Both the position numbers and the translations under genes were made by a program. A stretch of 64,000 nucleotides of DNA from the NCBI GenBank assembly GCA_017437125.1, contig JAFSBV010000031.1, positions 56,236 to 120,235 of the forward strand. Direction: 5' to 3'. The notes under the pieces are model-generated. The model did no database searches, was not told the DNA's origin, and saw only the letters and a program-made list of their open reading frames with translations. The DNA is from Bacteroidales bacterium (GTDB lineage Bacteria > Bacteroidota > Bacteroidia > Bacteroidales > UBA932). Below are positions 14,107 to 30,543 of this stretch, one piece after another. Each line of letters opens with the position of its first letter. Position 1 is the stretch's first letter.

Positions 14107-14892
14107 CTACTTGTTAAGAATGTTATAATTATGTACAGGGTTGCCGTTCTCATCAATGAAACGGACACAGAAATCACTCATACCTGGGCCATTGATCACA
14201 GCACCAGTAAGGATGTGACGACCCTTCTTGAGGGTTATTCTCTTTGAAGCGGCATCATCCATCACCATACGGCGGTCACCGGACATGATGAGAGCCTCTT
14301 CACCGTCGATCCACCACATTGAAGCAGAGTTTGATCCTACGGCAAGACGTACATTCTCGATATCCTCAGGGCAGTCGATAACTGTAACCACGCGGCAGAT
14401 AAGACCATAACGTCCAGTCTCTGTTCCTACTGCATAGCGGTAAAGCTTCACGTTGAAAAGCTTGCTGTCGAGTGCATGCCATGTGAGCTTGACCTTCTTC
14501 ATCTCAGTCTCAGGCTCTACACCCCACATCGGACGACCAGCTGTCATGTCAACCGGTTTCTGGTACTCGACCATCATAGTTTCCTTGTCACCATCCTTTG
14601 GAAGAGTGAACTCACCCTTGTTCCAGCCTGTATCAAGGTTCTTTCTGATGTAGCTATCAACAAAGACAGTGTTGCCACGGTTTGGCTTGCTGATAGGCTC
14701 GAGAAGCAGCCAACGACGGATGAATCCGAGTTCGTCAGGCTGGACAGCCTCTTCAACAGGTGTGCTGAAATAAGGAGCGAGAGCAGGATACGTCTCCACG
14801 AGATCCGCTTTCTTCTTCTTCGCATCAGCAGTGAAGGATGCAGCAGCAACGAGAGCGGCTGCAAGAATCAGTGTACGAAATAAATGTTTCAT
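14107..14892 (-). CDS. Secreted protein of unknown function in the xylan operon
   Basis: A 261-aa exported protein with signal peptide about 1-24 followed by a Lys-rich stretch (DAKKKKAD). No catalytic motif that I recognise. The mature part looks like one or two beta-sandwich domains: an N-terminal segment with GFIRRWLLLEPI and a C-terminal jelly-roll-like part (MWWIDGEEALIMSG, KKGRHILTGAVING) reminiscent of PA14-type binding domains. It sits between GH8 (28 bases upstream) and GH43 (7 bases downstream), so a role in xylan recognition or as an accessory subunit is plausible. Automatic labels such as acetylxylan esterase would not be supported by any visible triad. Confidence 0.5.
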   Translation of the reverse strand: MKHLFRTLILAAALVAAASFTADAKKKKADLVETYPALAPYFSTPVEEAVQPDELGFIRRWLLLEPISKPNRGNTVFVDSYIRKNLDTGWNKGEFTLPKDGDKETMMVEYQKPVDMTAGRPMWGVEPETEMKKVKLTWHALDSKLFNVKLYRYAVGTETGRYGLICRVVTVIDCPEDIENVRLAVGSNSASMWWIDGEEALIMSGDRRMVMDDAASKRITLKKGRHILTGAVINGPGMSDFCVRFIDENGNPVHNYNILNK

Positions 14893-21792: not shown

Positions 21793-23265
21793 TCAATTTC
21801 GAAAGTTTACCTGAATTTCAGCCCCGGATTCAGCAAAATCAGCAATTCTGCGTCCGTCCAATGCTGTTTCTCCTATTAAAAACTCCGGAATATTGTACGA
21901 AAACATCAGAGAGCCATAATATGCAGCAGGATCTTTCTGAGGGATAAGGAAAGACTTATGAGCATTTCCGTCCTTGTCTATATATGACATATAAGGCCTT
22001 GTATAAAGGCCGTCATCCCTTCTGCTGCTGAAGATGAGCCATCTGCCGTTGCTGCTCCACGAATGATAGCTCTCCACATCTTCGCTGTTGACTCCGTCCA
22101 TAAAACGGCAGTCTCCGGATTCCGTATCATATATATACAGGTCGGCATCCTTATGCCATATGGAGAAGTTTCCGTAGTCAGAAAGAGTGAACACGAGGAA
22201 TCTTCCATCAGGAGACAGTCTCGGGAACGACGCGCTTCGTCCGGATATCCTTGCATTATATAAGGTATCCGCAACGCTGCCTAAAGAGCAGGAGACAGGA
22301 TCGAAATCAACGCGGCAAAGGCTGTACCTGACATCCTTGAACCTTTCGGGCATAGGCTCCACGGCTTCGGCAGTACAGAAATACAGGCTGCGGCCATCAG
22401 GGGAGAATGTCGGAAAGGTCTCGAAGGCGTCAGAGGATGAAAGAAGGTCAGATGTAACGATCTCATGGGCATCAACATCATAAACGACAACGTCAGAAGC
22501 CTCATCAAAGACCTCTATCCTGTCCGGATCCTTCATATGAAGGACCTGATTGGTCTGGTTCACCGAGAATGCAACATATTTACCCGAATGATGCCAATAA
22601 GGATATACGAGGGACGAGATCGTACTGTCAGTCTTTGTATTCAGCTTCTCCATATTTCCGTCACGGAACACATATGTACCGGCAAACTCTGAACGCATAT
22701 GGAAAAGTATCTGATCAGGATCACGGTCACGGAATGAATGACAGTTGACACAGTTGCCCTTTCCCTGAGCATTACGATAGATCTCGCGCTCTGCAAAGTC
22801 GGAGAGAGAGCGTTGACATATGCTCATTTCCTTCCATAGGCTGTATCCCGGAGGAATCTTTCGATATACGATAAATGGATCGGTTTCTTCTTCAGAGATA
22901 TGGATGGAGAAGGGTTCTGCAGACAGCCATTCTGACCTGTCCTTCATGCACAAGGTGCAGGTCAAGGTCTCGCCGGCATGTTCTTCAAGCATCCTTGCCC
23001 ACATGCGTCTGCCGAAGCGGAAAAGTCTCCCGTGCGCACGCAGGCTGTAGCGTGAATCCCCTGCCTCAATATTCAATATCCAATCCCTGCCAGAATCACC
23101 GATGACTTCAAAATTCATCGGAGCGATATTGAAAGGAACCGTAACATCCTTATAATCAGGATATATCTCAGGAACCGAATCCATTCTTCCCGACACTTCC
23201 ACATCGGGCGAGCATGCCCATATGAAACAGAGCAGGCATATGCATATCATAAAGGATCTTCTCAT
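21793..23265 (-). CDS. Lipoprotein beta-propeller with CxxCH heme-type motif (copy 3, divergent)
   Basis: A 490-aa lipoprotein (lipobox IWAC, Cys18). An N-terminal beta-rich domain (about 25-140; PDYKDVTVPFNIAPMNFEV is shared with the two paralogues) is followed by the motif CVNCH (172-176), the signature of covalent c-type heme attachment. A histidine (H189, in FHMR) lies exactly 13 residues later, as in the paralogues. Residues about 210-450 form a WD40/TolB-like (PD40) propeller (WHHSGKYVAFS, FSPDGRSLYF, LSPDGRFLVF, WSSNGRWLIF). It is the last gene of the six-gene operon, its ATG overlapping the membrane-protein stop by 4 bases. Function unknown; heme binding is predicted, not shown. It is the most diverged of the three. 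Confidence 0.7.
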   Translation of the reverse strand: MRRSFMICICLLCFIWACSPDVEVSGRMDSVPEIYPDYKDVTVPFNIAPMNFEVIGDSGRDWILNIEAGDSRYSLRAHGRLFRFGRRMWARMLEEHAGETLTCTLCMKDRSEWLSAEPFSIHISEEETDPFIVYRKIPPGYSLWKEMSICQRSLSDFAEREIYRNAQGKGNCVNCHSFRDRDPDQILFHMRSEFAGTYVFRDGNMEKLNTKTDSTISSLVYPYWHHSGKYVAFSVNQTNQVLHMKDPDRIEVFDEASDVVVYDVDAHEIVTSDLLSSSDAFETFPTFSPDGRSLYFCTAEAVEPMPERFKDVRYSLCRVDFDPVSCSLGSVADTLYNARISGRSASFPRLSPDGRFLVFTLSDYGNFSIWHKDADLYIYDTESGDCRFMDGVNSEDVESYHSWSSNGRWLIFSSRRDDGLYTRPYMSYIDKDGNAHKSFLIPQKDPAAYYGSLMFSYNIPEFLIGETALDGRRIADFAESGAEIQVNFRN

Positions 23266-24719
23266 TTCGCACCCTCCAATATTCCATATAATTCATAAAA
23301 CTGCGAAAGCACATGCTGTGACGGATCAGCCTGCAGCATATCCCTCATATCCCCTTTCAGTCCGTCATATCTGAGATATTCATCCTGAACCGGAAGCAAT
23401 GCTGCAGAAGGATGCTCAAGGGCAGAATACGCTTCTGAGGCCCATTTCCGATAGAACAAGGTCTTTTCAAGAATCCTGATATACTTCTCTGCCACTTCAT
23501 ATGCTCCAAGGGCGATGTTCGTTCTCACCAGAATCATCAGCTGACGAGGATTACGCATTCCGGGAGTGACCAGATTGGCATCGAACGCAGCCTGACGTGC
23601 AGCCGCATGATATCCCCATGATTCATAGACAATGCTCTGGAGAGTGAATCCGGTCTTGAGATTCTTAGTCGGATACATGAGACTTGTCAGATCCTGAGGA
23701 TTATAGTAAGCAAAATGCTCCGTGAGCGTTCCTTTCTGAGCCAGGGCAAGATTCATATAGCTGATGAAGAAGGTCGGAAAGCGTCTGTCGGCAGTCTCTA
23801 TGATCTCCTCCCACTCTCCTTTCTCTGCCATATGCTGCTCAGTGACGAGGCGGTAATGCACATTGCTGTGTACCTTTCCGTAAATGTTCCATGCAATGAT
23901 GAACGAACATGCCAGGCCTGCTGCTGCAACCGCCACGGAAGCCTTAGATTTAAGATTCAGCCTTCTCAAGCCTATGGAAACAAGCATAAGTAGAGGAACG
24001 GAAGCCCATGCATACAACGGGAAGAAATATGTCGATGGATTGCTGTAATACATGAATGGAGTCAGGGCGGACTCCCATCCGTCAACAAGAGACAGGCGTA
24101 CATATATCCATGCGGTAAGAAGCAGAACCGCAGGGTAAATGAGCGCCGGAAGCCCTCTGAGGCCGTATCGGACAATATCAAGGACTAATGCCGACACTGC
24201 AAATACGATCGCGGCACTTCCAGATGCATGATAAAGCAGAGGAACCATGATCATCCCGGCCGCAGCACGGATCAGAGGCTTCTCCTGCGGAAGGCAGGCA
24301 TATGCAAGTATCGCAGCCAGAGCAAGAATGAATGCCACATGACCGTGATACATATAATAGTCATTCTCCAGACAGAGAAAGAGAAATGCCGCAGGGATAA
24401 ATGAGAATCCGGCCATCATCGGACCTTCAGGTACAATGGCCGACAATATCCTGTATGTCAGGATGCCTGCAAGAAGATATAAAAGAGCAGTAATCACTGT
24501 TCCGACATACGGGATGCACATGAACTGAGTCATGAATGAGGACAGAATAAGGGCAAGTCCTCCCGGCTGAAGGAGCCTGGACGCAATATCCGCCCGGTCA
24601 TATAGGAAAAGATTCACGCTCTCCAGATTGAAGAAACGGAATTCCTGGGCGAGATGTATGCCTATAGCCATAAGCACGACTGCCACGCTCCACATTATCA
24701 AGACCTTCCTGTCTTTCAT
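23262..24719 (-). CDS. DUF6057-like multi-pass membrane protein (copy 3)
   Basis: A 485-aa protein with about nine hydrophobic segments in residues 8-280 and a helical, TPR-like C-terminus (about 285-485). The pattern QPGGLALILSSFMTQFMCIP, close to the N-terminus, recalls the DUF6057 family of Bacteroidota (recognised by pattern, not by search). Its stop overlaps the start of the CxxCH propeller gene (ATGA), and it lies 12 bases after the second membrane paralogue. Together with the other copies it suggests a membrane component working with the heme-motif lipoproteins. Biochemical role unknown. It is clearly more diverged than copies 1 and 2. Confidence 0.6.
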   Translation of the reverse strand: MKDRKVLIMWSVAVVLMAIGIHLAQEFRFFNLESVNLFLYDRADIASRLLQPGGLALILSSFMTQFMCIPYVGTVITALLYLLAGILTYRILSAIVPEGPMMAGFSFIPAAFLFLCLENDYYMYHGHVAFILALAAILAYACLPQEKPLIRAAAGMIMVPLLYHASGSAAIVFAVSALVLDIVRYGLRGLPALIYPAVLLLTAWIYVRLSLVDGWESALTPFMYYSNPSTYFFPLYAWASVPLLMLVSIGLRRLNLKSKASVAVAAAGLACSFIIAWNIYGKVHSNVHYRLVTEQHMAEKGEWEEIIETADRRFPTFFISYMNLALAQKGTLTEHFAYYNPQDLTSLMYPTKNLKTGFTLQSIVYESWGYHAAARQAAFDANLVTPGMRNPRQLMILVRTNIALGAYEVAEKYIRILEKTLFYRKWASEAYSALEHPSAALLPVQDEYLRYDGLKGDMRDMLQADPSQHVLSQFYELYGILEGAK

Positions 24720-24731
24720 ACCTTCATCATT

Positions 24732-26159
24732 TTAATAAACATATGCCCAATACGTTTCAGCGTATTTCCTCTTGGCTTCTGCACTTCTCCCCTTCTGCAT
24801 CAGATCCGTAAAGTCGATGAAGCAGTTCCATATTTCCTTATCGACCTTGAATCTTTTCAATATGTCCGGATTCTGACTTGCTATCAGGACAAGAGCCTCC
24901 TGATAGAGTCTTGGAGCCGATATTTCCTCTTTGTAATGCTGACTGAAAGCTCTGAGGAAGGATTCTGCGTCCTTCTCGGCCAATGTAGCACAAAGCAAAT
25001 AATCCAGATACTTTCTGTTCTCAGGATATCTCTGCACAAGAGAGGTCATATCAGGGATAAAGGAGGTGAATATGAACTTGTCAGAGGATACGGCATATGC
25101 AGGTTCCGAATTTCTGATTCTGTCAAGGGCTGGAAGCCTTCTGCTTATCCACCTTCCATGACAGCTTGAATGCGACAATATGTCGATGTATTTCCTGGCG
25201 AGATCGTAGTCCTTCAAGCCGATGTAAAGGTCTGCCATATATCTTACCGCATCAAAACATACTCCATACGACGACTGGAGGGCGTAATGATATGAATGAT
25301 AGACAGCAGGATTCGCAAGTCCCAGTGAACGGTAGAAGAGGACATTGAAGCTCCTGCAGAACAGGAAGTCCTCATGCTGGAACAGAAAGTCGTCAGCATC
25401 GGACAGGCCGTAACTGAATGCATAATCCGGAAGTCTTCCGGTCTCGGACAATGCAAGCAGCACATATCTGCGTGCGAATCTGTTTCTCAGCGCATCCTGG
25501 CGCGATACGGTCCGAAGGATTCCGTCCCAGTCTCCGTTTTCTCCGAGATATTCCAGATGTGCGACTTCTTCGTGATATCTGCCAAGTTTGTCATTGTCCA
25601 GAAGCATGAATACCGAAATACCGACAGAGACGACAGGTATTGCCAACATGAGCAGATAATGGTGGAGAACGCCGGGAAACGGTATGAAGTTTCTTTTGCA
25701 GAGAGCCGATAAAGAGGCTGCAAGGGCGCATCCGGCGGCAATCAGGAGCATGGTCACGGTTTTGGAAAGGTTCATGTCTCCCAACTGCAGTAAGACAGCA
25801 GGAGGAAGCAGGAGGAAAGCCGCCCACAGAAGCTGATCCGGCTCACGAAAGATCTTACGGATGACTACACCCGCACATGCGGCAATTCCCACAGGGACAA
25901 GGGCCTGAATCAATGCGCCAAGTACAGGGAACCTGAAGAACTGGAGCAGGAAGGCTCCGATATATTGAGGAATATCCTTGAATGAATCCAGCATTATTCC
26001 CGTATAGTCCGGAACCGTCGAGAAGAAGCTATAGCCCTCCATCCATCTCATGAAATACGGATACATAAAGAACCAGACTGCCCAAAGGGCAAGGGTTGCC
26101 ACGCCCAGCAACAGTCCATATGCCGAAAACGGTCTTTCGCTGATCAATCGTTTCATCAT
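24732..26159 (-). CDS. DUF6057-like membrane protein with helical C-terminus (copy 2)
   Basis: A 475-aa protein with about six hydrophobic segments within residues 10-200 (LLLGVATLALWAVWFFMYPY at the start), then a soluble region of about 275 residues built of helical repeats (DLYIGLKDYDLARKYIDILS resembles a TPR unit), ending KYAETYWAYVY. It aligns along its length with copy 1: both share LWAVWFF, EGYS, YIGAFL.QF, EYLGEN and the terminal YADTYWAY-type motif. Its start overlaps the stop of the preceding propeller gene by 4 bases (an alternative ATG is one codon in). Function unknown. Confidence 0.6.
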   Translation of the reverse strand: MMKRLISERPFSAYGLLLGVATLALWAVWFFMYPYFMRWMEGYSFFSTVPDYTGIMLDSFKDIPQYIGAFLLQFFRFPVLGALIQALVPVGIAACAGVVIRKIFREPDQLLWAAFLLLPPAVLLQLGDMNLSKTVTMLLIAAGCALAASLSALCKRNFIPFPGVLHHYLLMLAIPVVSVGISVFMLLDNDKLGRYHEEVAHLEYLGENGDWDGILRTVSRQDALRNRFARRYVLLALSETGRLPDYAFSYGLSDADDFLFQHEDFLFCRSFNVLFYRSLGLANPAVYHSYHYALQSSYGVCFDAVRYMADLYIGLKDYDLARKYIDILSHSSCHGRWISRRLPALDRIRNSEPAYAVSSDKFIFTSFIPDMTSLVQRYPENRKYLDYLLCATLAEKDAESFLRAFSQHYKEEISAPRLYQEALVLIASQNPDILKRFKVDKEIWNCFIDFTDLMQKGRSAEAKRKYAETYWAYVY

Positions 26160-27619
26160 TGCTTCGGTATAAAGATTTCAGCTGCTTCACGTGGAAGTTC
26201 CACCTTTCCATCGATGAATTCAGGCACATTGTAAGACTTCATTCTCAATACATTATGACGTGGATCCTCCTGAGGGAGCAGGAATGGTTTCCCGGGATTG
26301 CCGTCCTCATCGAGATGGGCGATGAAGAGCCTGGTATAGCGTCCGTCCAGTCTTCTGCTGCCGAACACGATCCATCTACCGTCAGACGACCATGAATGAT
26401 AGCTGTCGGCCTGATCTGCATCATTCCATAGAGAAACATCGGCATCCCCGCCCTCTTCCAGATCCAGCATCCTGAGATCAGCTTCCTGATGCCATACAGG
26501 GAATGTTCCGTACTGCGACCATGTATAAAGAAGATATCTTCCTTCAGGGGATATGCGCGGATATGATGCACTGCCGCCGTCCTCAGCCGCACAGAACACT
26601 GTGTCGATCTTTTCTCCCAGCGTTCCTGTTTCAGGATCGAATGCGACGCGGAGAATATCGTATCTTATATCTGTGGAAAATAGTACCGGAAGCGTATCGG
26701 AAGCATATGATGAGAAATAAAGATATCTGCCGTCAGGAGACCATGAAGGGAAGGTCTCGAGAGTTTCTTCAGTCATAAAACGCGGATCTGTGATCAGCCT
26801 GTTGTTCTTCAGATCATAAACCACCAGATCTGAGGCGGTATCGAACACTTCAACAGGCTGCCGGCCCTCGTCGAAGAAGATCTGATGGGTCGTGTTGGAA
26901 GAATACGCTATGTAATCCCCTTCCGGATGCCAAGCAGGATATGTCGTGCTCTTTACAGGGCTTATATCTCCGAAATCAACCTTAGAGAGCTTGCCTTCAT
27001 GATATATCACCGTACCGCCATTCGCACCACGGGCATGGAACATCATGCTTTCAGAAGAAAAGGCAGGGAAATTATGACAGTTCAGACAAGTTCCGTCATC
27101 TGCCTTGTTCGTGACGATGGCTGTTTCTTCAAAAGAGGTGAGATCACGTTGATATATGCCCAGCTGCCGCCATCCCACATATCCCGGTTCGATGAGACGA
27201 TATGCGACCCATCCGTCTATCTCATCATCCGATATATATATGTTGAAAGGAGTGTATGTAACTCCCTCGGGCCATTCTTCACTCCATACCGAAACCTCGA
27301 TGCTTAAAGTCCCTCCCTTTGAATCCTCCATGAGTTCGCGCCACTTCTTCTCTGGAACAGCTATGACCCCATCCTTGCCGATGATTCTGAATGATGCATC
27401 GGATCCGGCCATGAAGTTTGCCTGCACATGATCGGCATCTTCAATCATGAAGTTAAGGGGTGCTATATTACACGGAACCGTAACTCCCTTATAATCAGGA
27501 AATATCTCAAGCTCGACATCTGTCACATATGATGTATCGCGCCATATCCTGCAGCCTGAGAGGCCATAGACGAGCACGAAAAGAATGAATATCTTGAGAA
27601 TGCCTTTCATCATTTTCAT
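26156..27619 (-). CDS. Lipoprotein beta-propeller with CxxCH heme-type motif (copy 2)
   Basis: A 487-aa lipoprotein (lipobox LSGC, Cys23). The N-terminal beta domain (about 30-140) carries PDYKGVTVPCNIAPLNFM. The heme-type motif is CLNCH (178-182), with H195 in MMFHARG 13 residues after the motif histidine as a possible distal ligand. The PD40 propeller spans about 215-450 (AWHPEGDYIAYSSN, WSPDGRYLYF, ISPEGRYLLYTWS, WSSDGRWIVFGSRR). It is very similar to copy 1, so a recent duplication. Coupled at both ends: its ATG overlaps the stop of membrane copy 1 and its stop overlaps the ATG of membrane copy 2. If heme is attached, the Ccm machinery and a periplasmic or surface location are implied. 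Confidence 0.72.
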   Translation of the reverse strand: MKMMKGILKIFILFVLVYGLSGCRIWRDTSYVTDVELEIFPDYKGVTVPCNIAPLNFMIEDADHVQANFMAGSDASFRIIGKDGVIAVPEKKWRELMEDSKGGTLSIEVSVWSEEWPEGVTYTPFNIYISDDEIDGWVAYRLIEPGYVGWRQLGIYQRDLTSFEETAIVTNKADDGTCLNCHNFPAFSSESMMFHARGANGGTVIYHEGKLSKVDFGDISPVKSTTYPAWHPEGDYIAYSSNTTHQIFFDEGRQPVEVFDTASDLVVYDLKNNRLITDPRFMTEETLETFPSWSPDGRYLYFSSYASDTLPVLFSTDIRYDILRVAFDPETGTLGEKIDTVFCAAEDGGSASYPRISPEGRYLLYTWSQYGTFPVWHQEADLRMLDLEEGGDADVSLWNDADQADSYHSWSSDGRWIVFGSRRLDGRYTRLFIAHLDEDGNPGKPFLLPQEDPRHNVLRMKSYNVPEFIDGKVELPREAAEIFIPKQ

Positions 27620-29052
27620 CGATAAGAATAAGCCCAGTATGTATCCGCATACTTCCTCAAAGCCTGAGTTCCTCTGCCGGAATTCATCATCTGCATGTAG
27701 TCGGCAAAATCATTCCAGGTATCATCGCTGATCGTGATTCCGTCAAGAACAGAAGGATCGACGCTGTATATGAGTACCAAGGCTTCCTCATAGAGGCGCG
27801 GAATATTACGGCCGTCAGGATACTGCCATCTTGCAATATATCTGAATATGTTCTTGAATTTGTCTCCTTCTTCATCTGCAAGCAGGGCGCAGAGCAGAAG
27901 ATCGGAATACTTCGGATTATCCGGATGGCGGTCAACCATTGACGAAAGAGTATGGGCGAAATCAGCGATTACGGATTTATGCTCGTCCACGCCGTACTCA
28001 GGAACAGCATCCCTGATTGCTTCAAGCTGCGGCAAACGGTCCTTCACCCATTTCCTGTGACAGGTGGTATGACTCAGGATCTCGAGATATTTCTTAGCCA
28101 GTTCATAGTCCTTCAGCTCGAGATATGTGTCAGCCAATCGTCTCAATGAAGCAGCTCCAATACCGGGAACCGACTGGACACCAAGCTGATAGGCCTGATG
28201 AATGACAGCATTATGCATGTCGAGACATTGATAGAACAATGCGTTATAGTTCAAGCTCATCGGATCTATGTTCTCATAGAACAGGAAACCGTCAGAACCT
28301 TTCAGACCGTACCTGAATGCATATTCCTTAAGATTGCCTGTTTCAGAGAGAGCCAGCAGAGCGTAATGACGCTTCATCGCATCTGCCGCAGCGTCCTGAA
28401 CGGACACTCTCTGCAGGATCTCCATCCACTGACGGTTCTCTCCCAAATATTCCAGACGCGCCAGTTCCTCATGTTCCCTGTTCCTCGGATCCATGAAAAC
28501 GAGAATGAATACGGAAAACGCCATAACAACGGAAGTCATGATAAGGTTCATGAACCTGAACGAAAGGAAAGACGGGCTTTTCCACTCCGGCTTCCATACT
28601 ATGGTGACCAGCGACACGACAATCAGCAAGGCCGTAAAGATCAGGCAGATGTTGAGCGTATGTACCAGCAGGAGATCCCAGAACTGTCGAAAGACCACGA
28701 GAAGTACAGGAAGGCAGGAAACCCACATCATTCCTGAAGGATCTCTGAAAAGACGCATCAGCATGAGTCCCGTGCATACTGCAGGCCACACTGCCAAAGC
28801 CGACTGTATGACGGCTCCAAAGAAAGGCATGGCATAGAACTGATGCAGGAACGCACCTATATATCCCGTAAATCCATGAGGGATACGGCCGTATATGGTC
28901 ATGAAATCCGGCAGAGTCGTAAAGAGGGAATAACCTTCAAGCCAGATATGATAATACCTGAAGCAGAAGAACCAGACTGCCCACAATATGATAAAAAGCA
29001 GCAGGGAGACAGCAGTCAGAATCCTGCCTGATGTTGATGAGATCTTCTTCAT
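27616..29052 (-). CDS. DUF6057-like membrane protein with helical C-terminus (copy 1)
   Basis: A 478-aa protein with about six hydrophobic segments in residues 10-195 (RILTAVSLLLFIILWAVWFF first) and a soluble helical region from about 200 on, including a TPR-like unit (DTYLELKDYELAKKYLEILS). It ends YADTYWAYSYR, nearly as in copy 2. It starts 6 bases after the first propeller gene and its stop overlaps the next propeller ATG (ATGA), so the two protein types are probably made in equal amounts. Function unknown; a partner or scaffold for the heme-motif lipoproteins is inferred from the repeated pairing. Confidence 0.6.
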   Translation of the reverse strand: MKKISSTSGRILTAVSLLLFIILWAVWFFCFRYYHIWLEGYSLFTTLPDFMTIYGRIPHGFTGYIGAFLHQFYAMPFFGAVIQSALAVWPAVCTGLMLMRLFRDPSGMMWVSCLPVLLVVFRQFWDLLLVHTLNICLIFTALLIVVSLVTIVWKPEWKSPSFLSFRFMNLIMTSVVMAFSVFILVFMDPRNREHEELARLEYLGENRQWMEILQRVSVQDAAADAMKRHYALLALSETGNLKEYAFRYGLKGSDGFLFYENIDPMSLNYNALFYQCLDMHNAVIHQAYQLGVQSVPGIGAASLRRLADTYLELKDYELAKKYLEILSHTTCHRKWVKDRLPQLEAIRDAVPEYGVDEHKSVIADFAHTLSSMVDRHPDNPKYSDLLLCALLADEEGDKFKNIFRYIARWQYPDGRNIPRLYEEALVLIYSVDPSVLDGITISDDTWNDFADYMQMMNSGRGTQALRKYADTYWAYSYR

Positions 29053-29058
29053 AGCGGA

Positions 29059-30510
29059 CTATTGTTCTGGTTCAAAAAGTTTCTCTACAGAGTCAGGAAG
29101 GATCACTTCTCCATCTATGAACTCCGGTACATTATAAGATTTCAGACGCCAGATATTATGGCGGGGATCCTCCTGTGGAAGAAGGAATGGCTTTCCCGAT
29201 ACGCCGTCCTCACCCATATGGGCCAGATAGAGACGTGTATATCTGCCGTCGCCCCTACGGCTTCCGTAAACGGCCCATCGTCCGTTCGAAGACCACGAAT
29301 GATAGCTGTCTGCATGCTGAGGATCATTCCATAGCGAGACATCAACATTCTCACCGGTTTCAAGATCCAGTACGGCAAGATCCGCCTCGTCATGCCATAT
29401 AGGGAATGTTCCGTATGACGACCAAGTGTATAGCAGATATCTTCCGTCAGCAGAAATACGCGGATATGAAGCGCTTCCTCCGGAAAAACGGGCATTATAC
29501 AACGTATCGATCTGTTCACCGAAAGAACGTGTCTGAGAGTCGAAAGGTACGCGAAGCAGATGATAATGCATACTTTCTACCTCATCAGGGAGTTCATGGG
29601 CATCAGAAGCCACATAATAGAGGTATTTTCCGTCAGGAGACCATGCAGGAAAGCTTTCAAGGACTTCCGCCGTCATGAAACGGGGATCCGTGACTACTTC
29701 ACCTGTACGTGTATCGTAAAGGATCAGGTCTGAAGCATTGTCATAGACTTCTATCGGCTTCTTTCCGTGAAGATAGAAGGACTGTCTTGTCGAATTTGAC
29801 GAAAATGCGATGAATCTGCCGTCCGGATGCCAGGCAGGATATGTAGTGTTCTTCTTAGGGCCGATTTCGTTGAAATTTATCTTTACAAGACGGCCGTTGT
29901 GATACAATATGGTTCCACCGTTCTCCCCTCTTGCATGGAACATCATGCTCTCGGATGAATATGAAGGGAAATGGTGGCAGTTCAGGCAGGTTTCATTGGT
30001 GGTACGATTGGAAACGATCACCTTCTCATCGAATGAGGAAAGGGATCTCTGATAGAGCCCCACCTGTCTCCAGCTTCTGTAACCAGGTTCGATAAGTCGG
30101 TATGCCACGTACGGATCTATCTCATCCTCAGCCACATATACCTGAAAAGGGCTGTAACGGACACCGTCCGGAGACGCATTGTCCCAGACAGAGACCACGA
30201 CTGAAAACGACGAGCCTTCGGCTGCGTCCAGAACCAGTTTCCACTCCTTTTCAGGGATGGATATCACTCCTTCTTTTCCGATAATTTCCGTGACGGCATT
30301 ACCGTCCACGATGAAAGAGGCCTGAATATGAGATGCCTCCTCGACCATGAAGTTCAAGGGAGCTATATTCGACGGTACGGTCACGCCGGAATAGTCAGGA
30401 AAGATATCCGGCTCTGAATCCGACACAGATGCCGGTTCCTTCCATGTGCTGCATGAAGCAAGCATCATGAAAAGGCCGGAAAGCATTATGGATCTGAGAT
30501 TAAAACGCAT
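29059..30510 (-). CDS. Lipoprotein beta-propeller with CxxCH heme-type motif (copy 1)
   Basis: A 483-aa lipoprotein (lipobox LASC, Cys20) and the first gene of the six-gene operon. The N-terminal beta domain (about 30-145) carries FPDYSGVTVPSNIAPLNFMV. The motif is CLNCH (175-179), with H192 in MMFHARG 13 residues after the motif histidine. The PD40/TolB-like propeller spans about 210-445 (AWHPDGRFIAFSSN, WSPDGKYLYY, ISADGRYLLYTWS, WSSNGRWAVYGSRR). It ends SYNVPEFIDGEVILPD, a tail shared with copy 2. A -7 box lies 26-33 bases upstream and the xus-operon terminator just before that, so this operon is separately transcribed. Confidence 0.72.
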   Translation of the reverse strand: MRFNLRSIMLSGLFMMLASCSTWKEPASVSDSEPDIFPDYSGVTVPSNIAPLNFMVEEASHIQASFIVDGNAVTEIIGKEGVISIPEKEWKLVLDAAEGSSFSVVVSVWDNASPDGVRYSPFQVYVAEDEIDPYVAYRLIEPGYRSWRQVGLYQRSLSSFDEKVIVSNRTTNETCLNCHHFPSYSSESMMFHARGENGGTILYHNGRLVKINFNEIGPKKNTTYPAWHPDGRFIAFSSNSTRQSFYLHGKKPIEVYDNASDLILYDTRTGEVVTDPRFMTAEVLESFPAWSPDGKYLYYVASDAHELPDEVESMHYHLLRVPFDSQTRSFGEQIDTLYNARFSGGSASYPRISADGRYLLYTWSSYGTFPIWHDEADLAVLDLETGENVDVSLWNDPQHADSYHSWSSNGRWAVYGSRRGDGRYTRLYLAHMGEDGVSGKPFLLPQEDPRHNIWRLKSYNVPEFIDGEVILPDSVEKLFEPEQ

Positions 30511-30535: not shown

Positions 30536-30543
30536 CAAAGATA
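30536..30543 (-). promoter_or_regulatory. -7 box TATCTTTG for the propeller/DUF6057 operon
   Basis: A minus-strand match to TAnnTTTG; predicted transcription start near 30531, about 20 bases before the ATG at 30510. A short dyad CACCATCTGGTG lies upstream (30564-30575). Confidence 0.55.

Follow-up and report, generated by a model that had tools for sequence, protein, structure and literature searches.

A gene pair encoding a propeller lipoprotein and a DUF6057 membrane protein occurs three times in a block of six genes within a 64,000-nucleotide stretch of a Bacteroidales genome (positions 56,236 to 120,235 of contig JAFSBV010000031.1, assembly GCA_017437125.1; "the window" hereafter means this whole stretch). 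The pairing of the two genes, the co-divergence of the partners, the invariance of a CxxCH motif in the lipoprotein and its predicted propeller fold are firmly established by our calculations. This unstudied gene pair points to an envelope machine of unknown kind. Tentatively, with less than even confidence, we read it as a conserved two-protein envelope complex, in which a membrane protein of GT-C-like type would act together with a propeller lipoprotein, whose centre would bind heme or a metal, to modify an exported glycoconjugate or protein. Judged from listings and the opening lines of abstracts, our literature search found no paper naming DUF6057 or PF19529 and none about the pair.

Two protein families inherited as a pair

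The six genes all lie on the minus strand in the order P1, M1, P2, M2, M3, P3 (P, propeller; M, membrane protein). P1 (29059..30510) is followed after 6 bases by M1 (27616..29052), which shares a 4-base ATGA overlap with P2 (26156..27619; 59% identity to P1). The same overlap joins P2 to M2 (24732..26159) and M3 (23262..24719) to P3 (21793..23265), and 12 bases separate M2 from M3. When the coordinates were rechecked, gene order, strand, overlaps and spacing agreed with a first-pass annotation of the sequence, which had also described two alternating families. The six genes do belong to two families, but the trees resolve them into three co-inherited pairs of two subfamilies rather than a plain alternation.

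Homologous loci were compared using the best 80 of 566 relatives, a set that leans towards close ones. They hold 88 propellers, 78 of which adjoined a DUF6057 gene in a first count; after reading frames and strands had been rechecked, the number rose to 82, 81 on the same strand as their partner and one divergent. Three of the remaining six stand at contig ends (L132, L149 and L154) and three look single (L100, L116 and L152). Among 295 sampled genomes of the order, DUF6057 scored over its cut-off in 38 (46 at E 0.001) and the propeller was strongly matched in 36 (62 at E 0.001, the rest being partial matches). All 36 have both families, and the other two DUF6057 genomes gave weak partial propeller matches. 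For this 295-genome count we kept propeller matches of E 1.4e-52 or better and DUF6057 matches over the cut-off, some pieces being merged; at least 66 of 82 DUF6057 places and at least 64 of 78 propeller places are paired. The searches scored 3 to 5 candidates of DUF6057 and propeller per genome, and copy numbers are thus lower bounds. A class-level sample of 396 genomes gave 13 with DUF6057 over its cut-off, all from the same order. A survey of co-occurrence, which the annotation had proposed for Bacteroidota PULs, came out in favour of co-inheritance for loci and genomes alike. The pair is patchy across the order yet tightly linked, and the 36 genomes that carry it often have more than one copy, within polysaccharide loci as well as elsewhere. 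Pairs are also present in Parabacteroides distasonis TSDC17.2-1.1. The genome of the window itself encodes six propellers and six DUF6057 proteins, the gene of one DUF6057 protein being truncated; three members of each family lie on another contig (C43) beside susC/D. Two loci titled as Gemmatimonadetes and Clostridium metagenome-assembled genomes (L144 and L156) also carry the pair, by mis-binning or transfer.

Trees of 71 pairs separate two subfamilies, A and B. Both trees group fifteen propeller-first pairs in a single clade (support 0.983 and 0.999), with four others outside it. Distances between partners correlate with r 0.87, against a maximum of 0.23 in 999 permutations, shared species history adding to the observed value. 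P1-M1 and P2-M2 (subfamily A) are nearest to the propeller-first pairs of two other loci, L079 and L080, which are the closest relatives, and M3-P3 (subfamily B) is nearest to the membrane-first pairs of the same loci. These positions indicate that the window contains an A pair duplicated once in tandem and one B pair. The starting point would have been an A pair with a B pair, the arrangement of L079 and L080, and a second copy of the A pair would then have brought the number of pairs to three.

An invariant CxNCH motif in a predicted TolB-like propeller

The propellers had been annotated as CxxCH lipoproteins with PD40-type blades, and this description holds: each of P1, P2 and P3 reads as having a lipobox Cys and one CxxCH, and PD40 exceeds the Pfam cut-off in all three. 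By sequence reading, the motif is CLNCH in P1 (residues 175-179, codons at 29974..29988, minus strand) and P2 (27074..27088, minus strand) and CVNCH in P3 (22738..22752, minus strand). Its conservation, which the annotation had left to be checked in homologues, is unvarying: exactly one CxxCH is found in 88/88 propellers of the 80 loci, and the motif is present in 61/61 open reading frames of another count, in which some loci overlap. In 70 aligned homologues the form CxNCH is universal and Cys20, the lipobox column, is kept in 69. A simple lipobox pattern matched 63 of the 88 homologues, a count that includes the choice of start. Ten residues (C175, N177, C178, H179, H192, R194, R138, R155, H404 and N460) are invariant in the 70 sequences. 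As far as such conservation can tell, CxNCH with the further invariant His and Arg residues suggests a heme- or metal-binding site.

In the AlphaFold model, made for P1 only, the protein is a TolB-like six-bladed propeller, and CxNCH lies in the inner strand of blade 1 and not in a cytochrome c domain. Foldseek gave 94 matches at E 0.001, the top ones being other propellers with low TM-scores; TolB led the structure matches only in a second look. Membership of TolB proper is not indicated, the NCBIfam TolB equivalog (TIGR02800) scoring 35.3-38.8 bits against a cut-off of 343. The proteins described here also differ from TolB of the Tol-Pal system in carrying CxxCH and having a DUF6057 partner; we know of no TolB with either.

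The invariant His, Cys and Arg residues could instead hold copper or another metal for redox catalysis, in the manner of thiocyanate dehydrogenase and similar propeller enzymes. We find this highly improbable, as enzymes of that type rank below TolB and LRP6-type propellers in the structure search.

A putatively GT-C-like membrane partner

All three membrane proteins exceed the DUF6057 (PF19529) cut-off of 29.8 bits: M1 with 183 (1.5e-53), M2 with 183.3 (1.2e-53) and M3 with 267 (5.4e-79, profile positions 8-426 of 569). DUF6057 consists of a membrane half followed by a TPR domain, which is probably periplasmic, a placement that is moderately supported. By hydropathy and alignment M1 and M2 are short forms, M1 with about five transmembrane helices and a TPR-like tail, both missing about four of the helices of full-length DUF6057; M3 keeps the full membrane domain and has a shortened tail. 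The annotation, too, had described a TPR-like tail, cytoplasmic or periplasmic. The A-type membrane proteins may be regulatory or scaffold forms. On contig C43, the DUF6057 copy beside a propeller is an open reading frame of 353 aa (L009:11896-12957) whose match starts at profile column 169 in a stretch that holds stops, so that the membrane part at the N-terminus seems to have been lost or disrupted. Several genomes of one family also encode a short DUF6057-like protein, about 320-405 aa long (G280:C1:1006546-1007193, G222:C25:14126-15274 and similar), which was not seen beside a propeller there.

The membrane half of DUF6057 matches GT-C glycosyltransferases moderately, both by fold and by profile, and we regard a relationship as moderately supported by these comparisons. 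Like the GT-C enzymes PMT_2/ArnT-like, Pmt4, STT3 and AftD, DUF6057 is modelled with a first helix, a sizeable periplasmic loop that contains an acidic residue and about nine predicted transmembrane helices, and for the DUF6057 family as a whole the profile match spans the entire membrane domain. The acidic residue, E38, follows directly after the first helix. Of 59 full-length proteins 56 have it, and so do M1, M2 and M3; its placement in the first periplasmic loop follows from the structure model. DUF6057 differs from these enzymes in its TPR tail and its lipoprotein partner gene. TMTC proteins are GT-C enzymes with TPR.

No GT-C family exceeded the Pfam cut-off among the DUF6057 matches. 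TMEM260-like proteins, which we take to be GT-C, showed no profile resemblance to DUF6057, and the reversed control reached 16.4. The profile runs used nine reference sequences for PMT_2 and seven for MFS, one used twice in each case, and in a later comparison of clusters two of the five look like TMEM260-like and MFS proteins again. A search of the PDB with the DUF6057 profile gave weak matches only, the best being a peptide transporter at E 0.0064.

One gene unit encodes both the propeller lipoprotein and a TPR domain that is probably periplasmic, which suggests a complex on the periplasmic side; the GT-C-like domain hints at the transfer of a sugar from a lipid carrier. DUF6057 would be anchored in the inner membrane by its GT-C-like domain, with the near-invariant acidic residue after the first helix, and would hold the TPR domain in the periplasm. 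The TPR domain may dock the lipoprotein propeller, which could select or present the acceptor; the GT-C-like domain would then pass the sugar from its lipid carrier to this acceptor, an exported glycoconjugate or protein, with the CxNCH site as a cofactor-dependent step or gate. We infer the sugar transfer, the docking of propeller and TPR domain and the identity of the CxNCH ligand from these features. Should the membrane protein prove to be a GT-C enzyme that works with a lipoprotein, the pair would be a further glycosylation system in a phylum where the glycosylation of proteins and of the surface is only partly understood.

A TolB-like assembly factor or scaffold would need no catalysis: here the membrane protein would be an anchor without enzyme activity, and the propeller, its CxNCH carrying a structural metal or a disulfide, would help in assembling or stabilising machinery of the envelope, SusCD or lipoprotein traffic for example. 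We hold this to be rather unlikely, given that E38 is kept in the short forms as well as in nearly all full-length proteins and that the ten invariant propeller residues suggest a ligand site.

The heme and redox question

The annotation had proposed an envelope redox or signalling module. An envelope module is what we find; its redox character has evidence on either side, and the redox reading is one of several for the conserved module. Heme on the propeller is possible. The propeller would then be a mono-heme c-type cytochrome with heme attached at CxNCH, a conserved His (for instance H192, H228 or H404) as second ligand and a conserved Arg near the propionates, while the membrane partner relays electrons or senses the redox state. 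The unvarying motif is what such a cytochrome would require, and the distribution of CcsA (PF01578) also agrees with it: of the 36 propeller genomes, 35 have CcsA, compared with 209 of the remaining 259 genomes (Fisher 0.009, uncorrected for kinship, with presence per genome read by eye from the search listing), and the genome of the window has it too. We nevertheless consider the cytochrome doubtful. In the model of P1, CxNCH is in a strand and not in a helix. No cytochrome c family is present among the 25 commonest of the 42 Pfam families matched by the 70 propellers. The model shows no distinct cytochrome c domain either, and the idea that the protein contains one was discarded on both counts. 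Genome G276 has the pair with its CxxCH, and CcsA or CcsBA was not found there by the genome search or by a search of 38 loci. On the membrane side, no His is conserved among 59 full-length DUF6057 proteins, on which ground a quinol-oxidising or heme-b partner role was rejected, and the family resembles GT-C glycosyltransferases more than it does redox proteins.

A CxxCH in an exported protein, in genomes that usually have CcsA, is shared with c-type cytochromes and with hydrazine-synthase-like proteins; the strand position of the motif sets the propellers apart. In the part of PMC12607021 available to us, the His of a CxxCH binds zinc in hydrazine synthase, which is a further point against reading the motif as heme attachment. 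That precedent is all this part of the source offered, and a hydrazine-synthase-like protein was not retained as a candidate. If the propeller does carry heme, this would be an unusual way of holding a c-type heme.

In the genome of the window, CcsA lies between an open reading frame of 280 aa, read as CcsB-like, and one with three CxxCH motifs (L078:5367-8451); the latter encodes 472 aa and is peroxidase-like by reading. ResB gave no Pfam match in this genome.

In 8 of 85 testable cases among the loci compared, and also on contig C43, the gene immediately after the propeller encodes an FkbO/Hyg5-like chorismatase or a Rid-domain protein (for example L009:14397-15437, L080:15828-16931 and L127:11441-12700), which is too rare for a third core component. 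Combining these elements, the pair might form an envelope glycosyltransferase of Bacteroidota gated by redox state or heme: a lipoprotein propeller with a c-type heme in its centre would control how active the GT-C enzyme is or which acceptor it uses, the chorismatase-like protein would supply an aromatic factor in some loci, and the system would have been recruited into xylan loci. So specific a combination seems to us very unlikely.

Xylan loci as one of several settings

The block had been placed inside a xylan locus, and family scans agree: GH10, DUF5627, GH8, GH43, BD-FAE, SASA and glucuronyl-esterase-type families, together with a hybrid two-component regulator, surround it. The window has three SusD genes, the SusC genes being assigned by reading open reading frames. 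An open reading frame of 261 aa between GH8 and GH43 (14107-14892) had no Pfam match at 1e-5 and no NCBIfam match at 0.01.

In the window, on C43 and in L079 and L080, the pair adjoins susC/D as in a polysaccharide utilization locus, accompanied by glycoside hydrolase genes in the window, on C43 and in L080. L079 and L080 both have propeller, DUF6057, DUF6057, propeller behind susC/D. The module of L080 is preceded by DUF5627 and GH10 and followed by GH5 and GH10; that of L079 is followed by GH10 and GH5, two genes before it lying outside the scan. The combination of an A and a B pair adjoins GH10 genes in the window and in both these loci. A tie to xylan in general, as the annotation had suggested, was not supported. 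Among the 23 loci with full 7.5-kb flanks on both sides, 10 have susC or susD within that distance and 13 have neither; when cut contig ends are included, susC or susD is near the pair in 21 of 80 loci. The 2.8 Mb genome of the window has 17 SusD matches. Since susC/D is near just 10 of the 23, the pair is not a xylan device as such, and xylan specificity of the family as a whole was rejected; xylan is one of several settings of the pair. In Bacteroides fragilis (NZ_CP018938.1, L013:10458-13386) the pair stands behind susC/D with sigma-70-factor and FecR genes, at a position where the plasmid's gene table has no gene entered.

Promoter-like and terminator-like sequences

The annotation gave the block its own -7 box and flanking terminators. 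Terminator-like hairpins are indeed found on both sides, one between the GH10 gene and P1 (30588..30619, minus strand) and one beyond P3 (21554..21586, minus strand); the hairpin scan gave 12 such sites in the window against 6.9 in shuffles, so that any single site is weak. A pattern scan places TAnnTTTG, which we take to be a -7-type promoter box, upstream of P1 at 30536..30543 (minus strand; TATCTTTG), 25 bases separating its end from the P1 start. The pattern alone occurs at chance frequency, with 22 copies in the window against 23.6 expected, and a sigma-70 scan of the window gave no excess either (15 against 14.7). What speaks for the box is its layout: a hairpin, a T-run and TAnnTTTG stand right upstream of the first propeller in all three loci compared, the window, L079 and L080.
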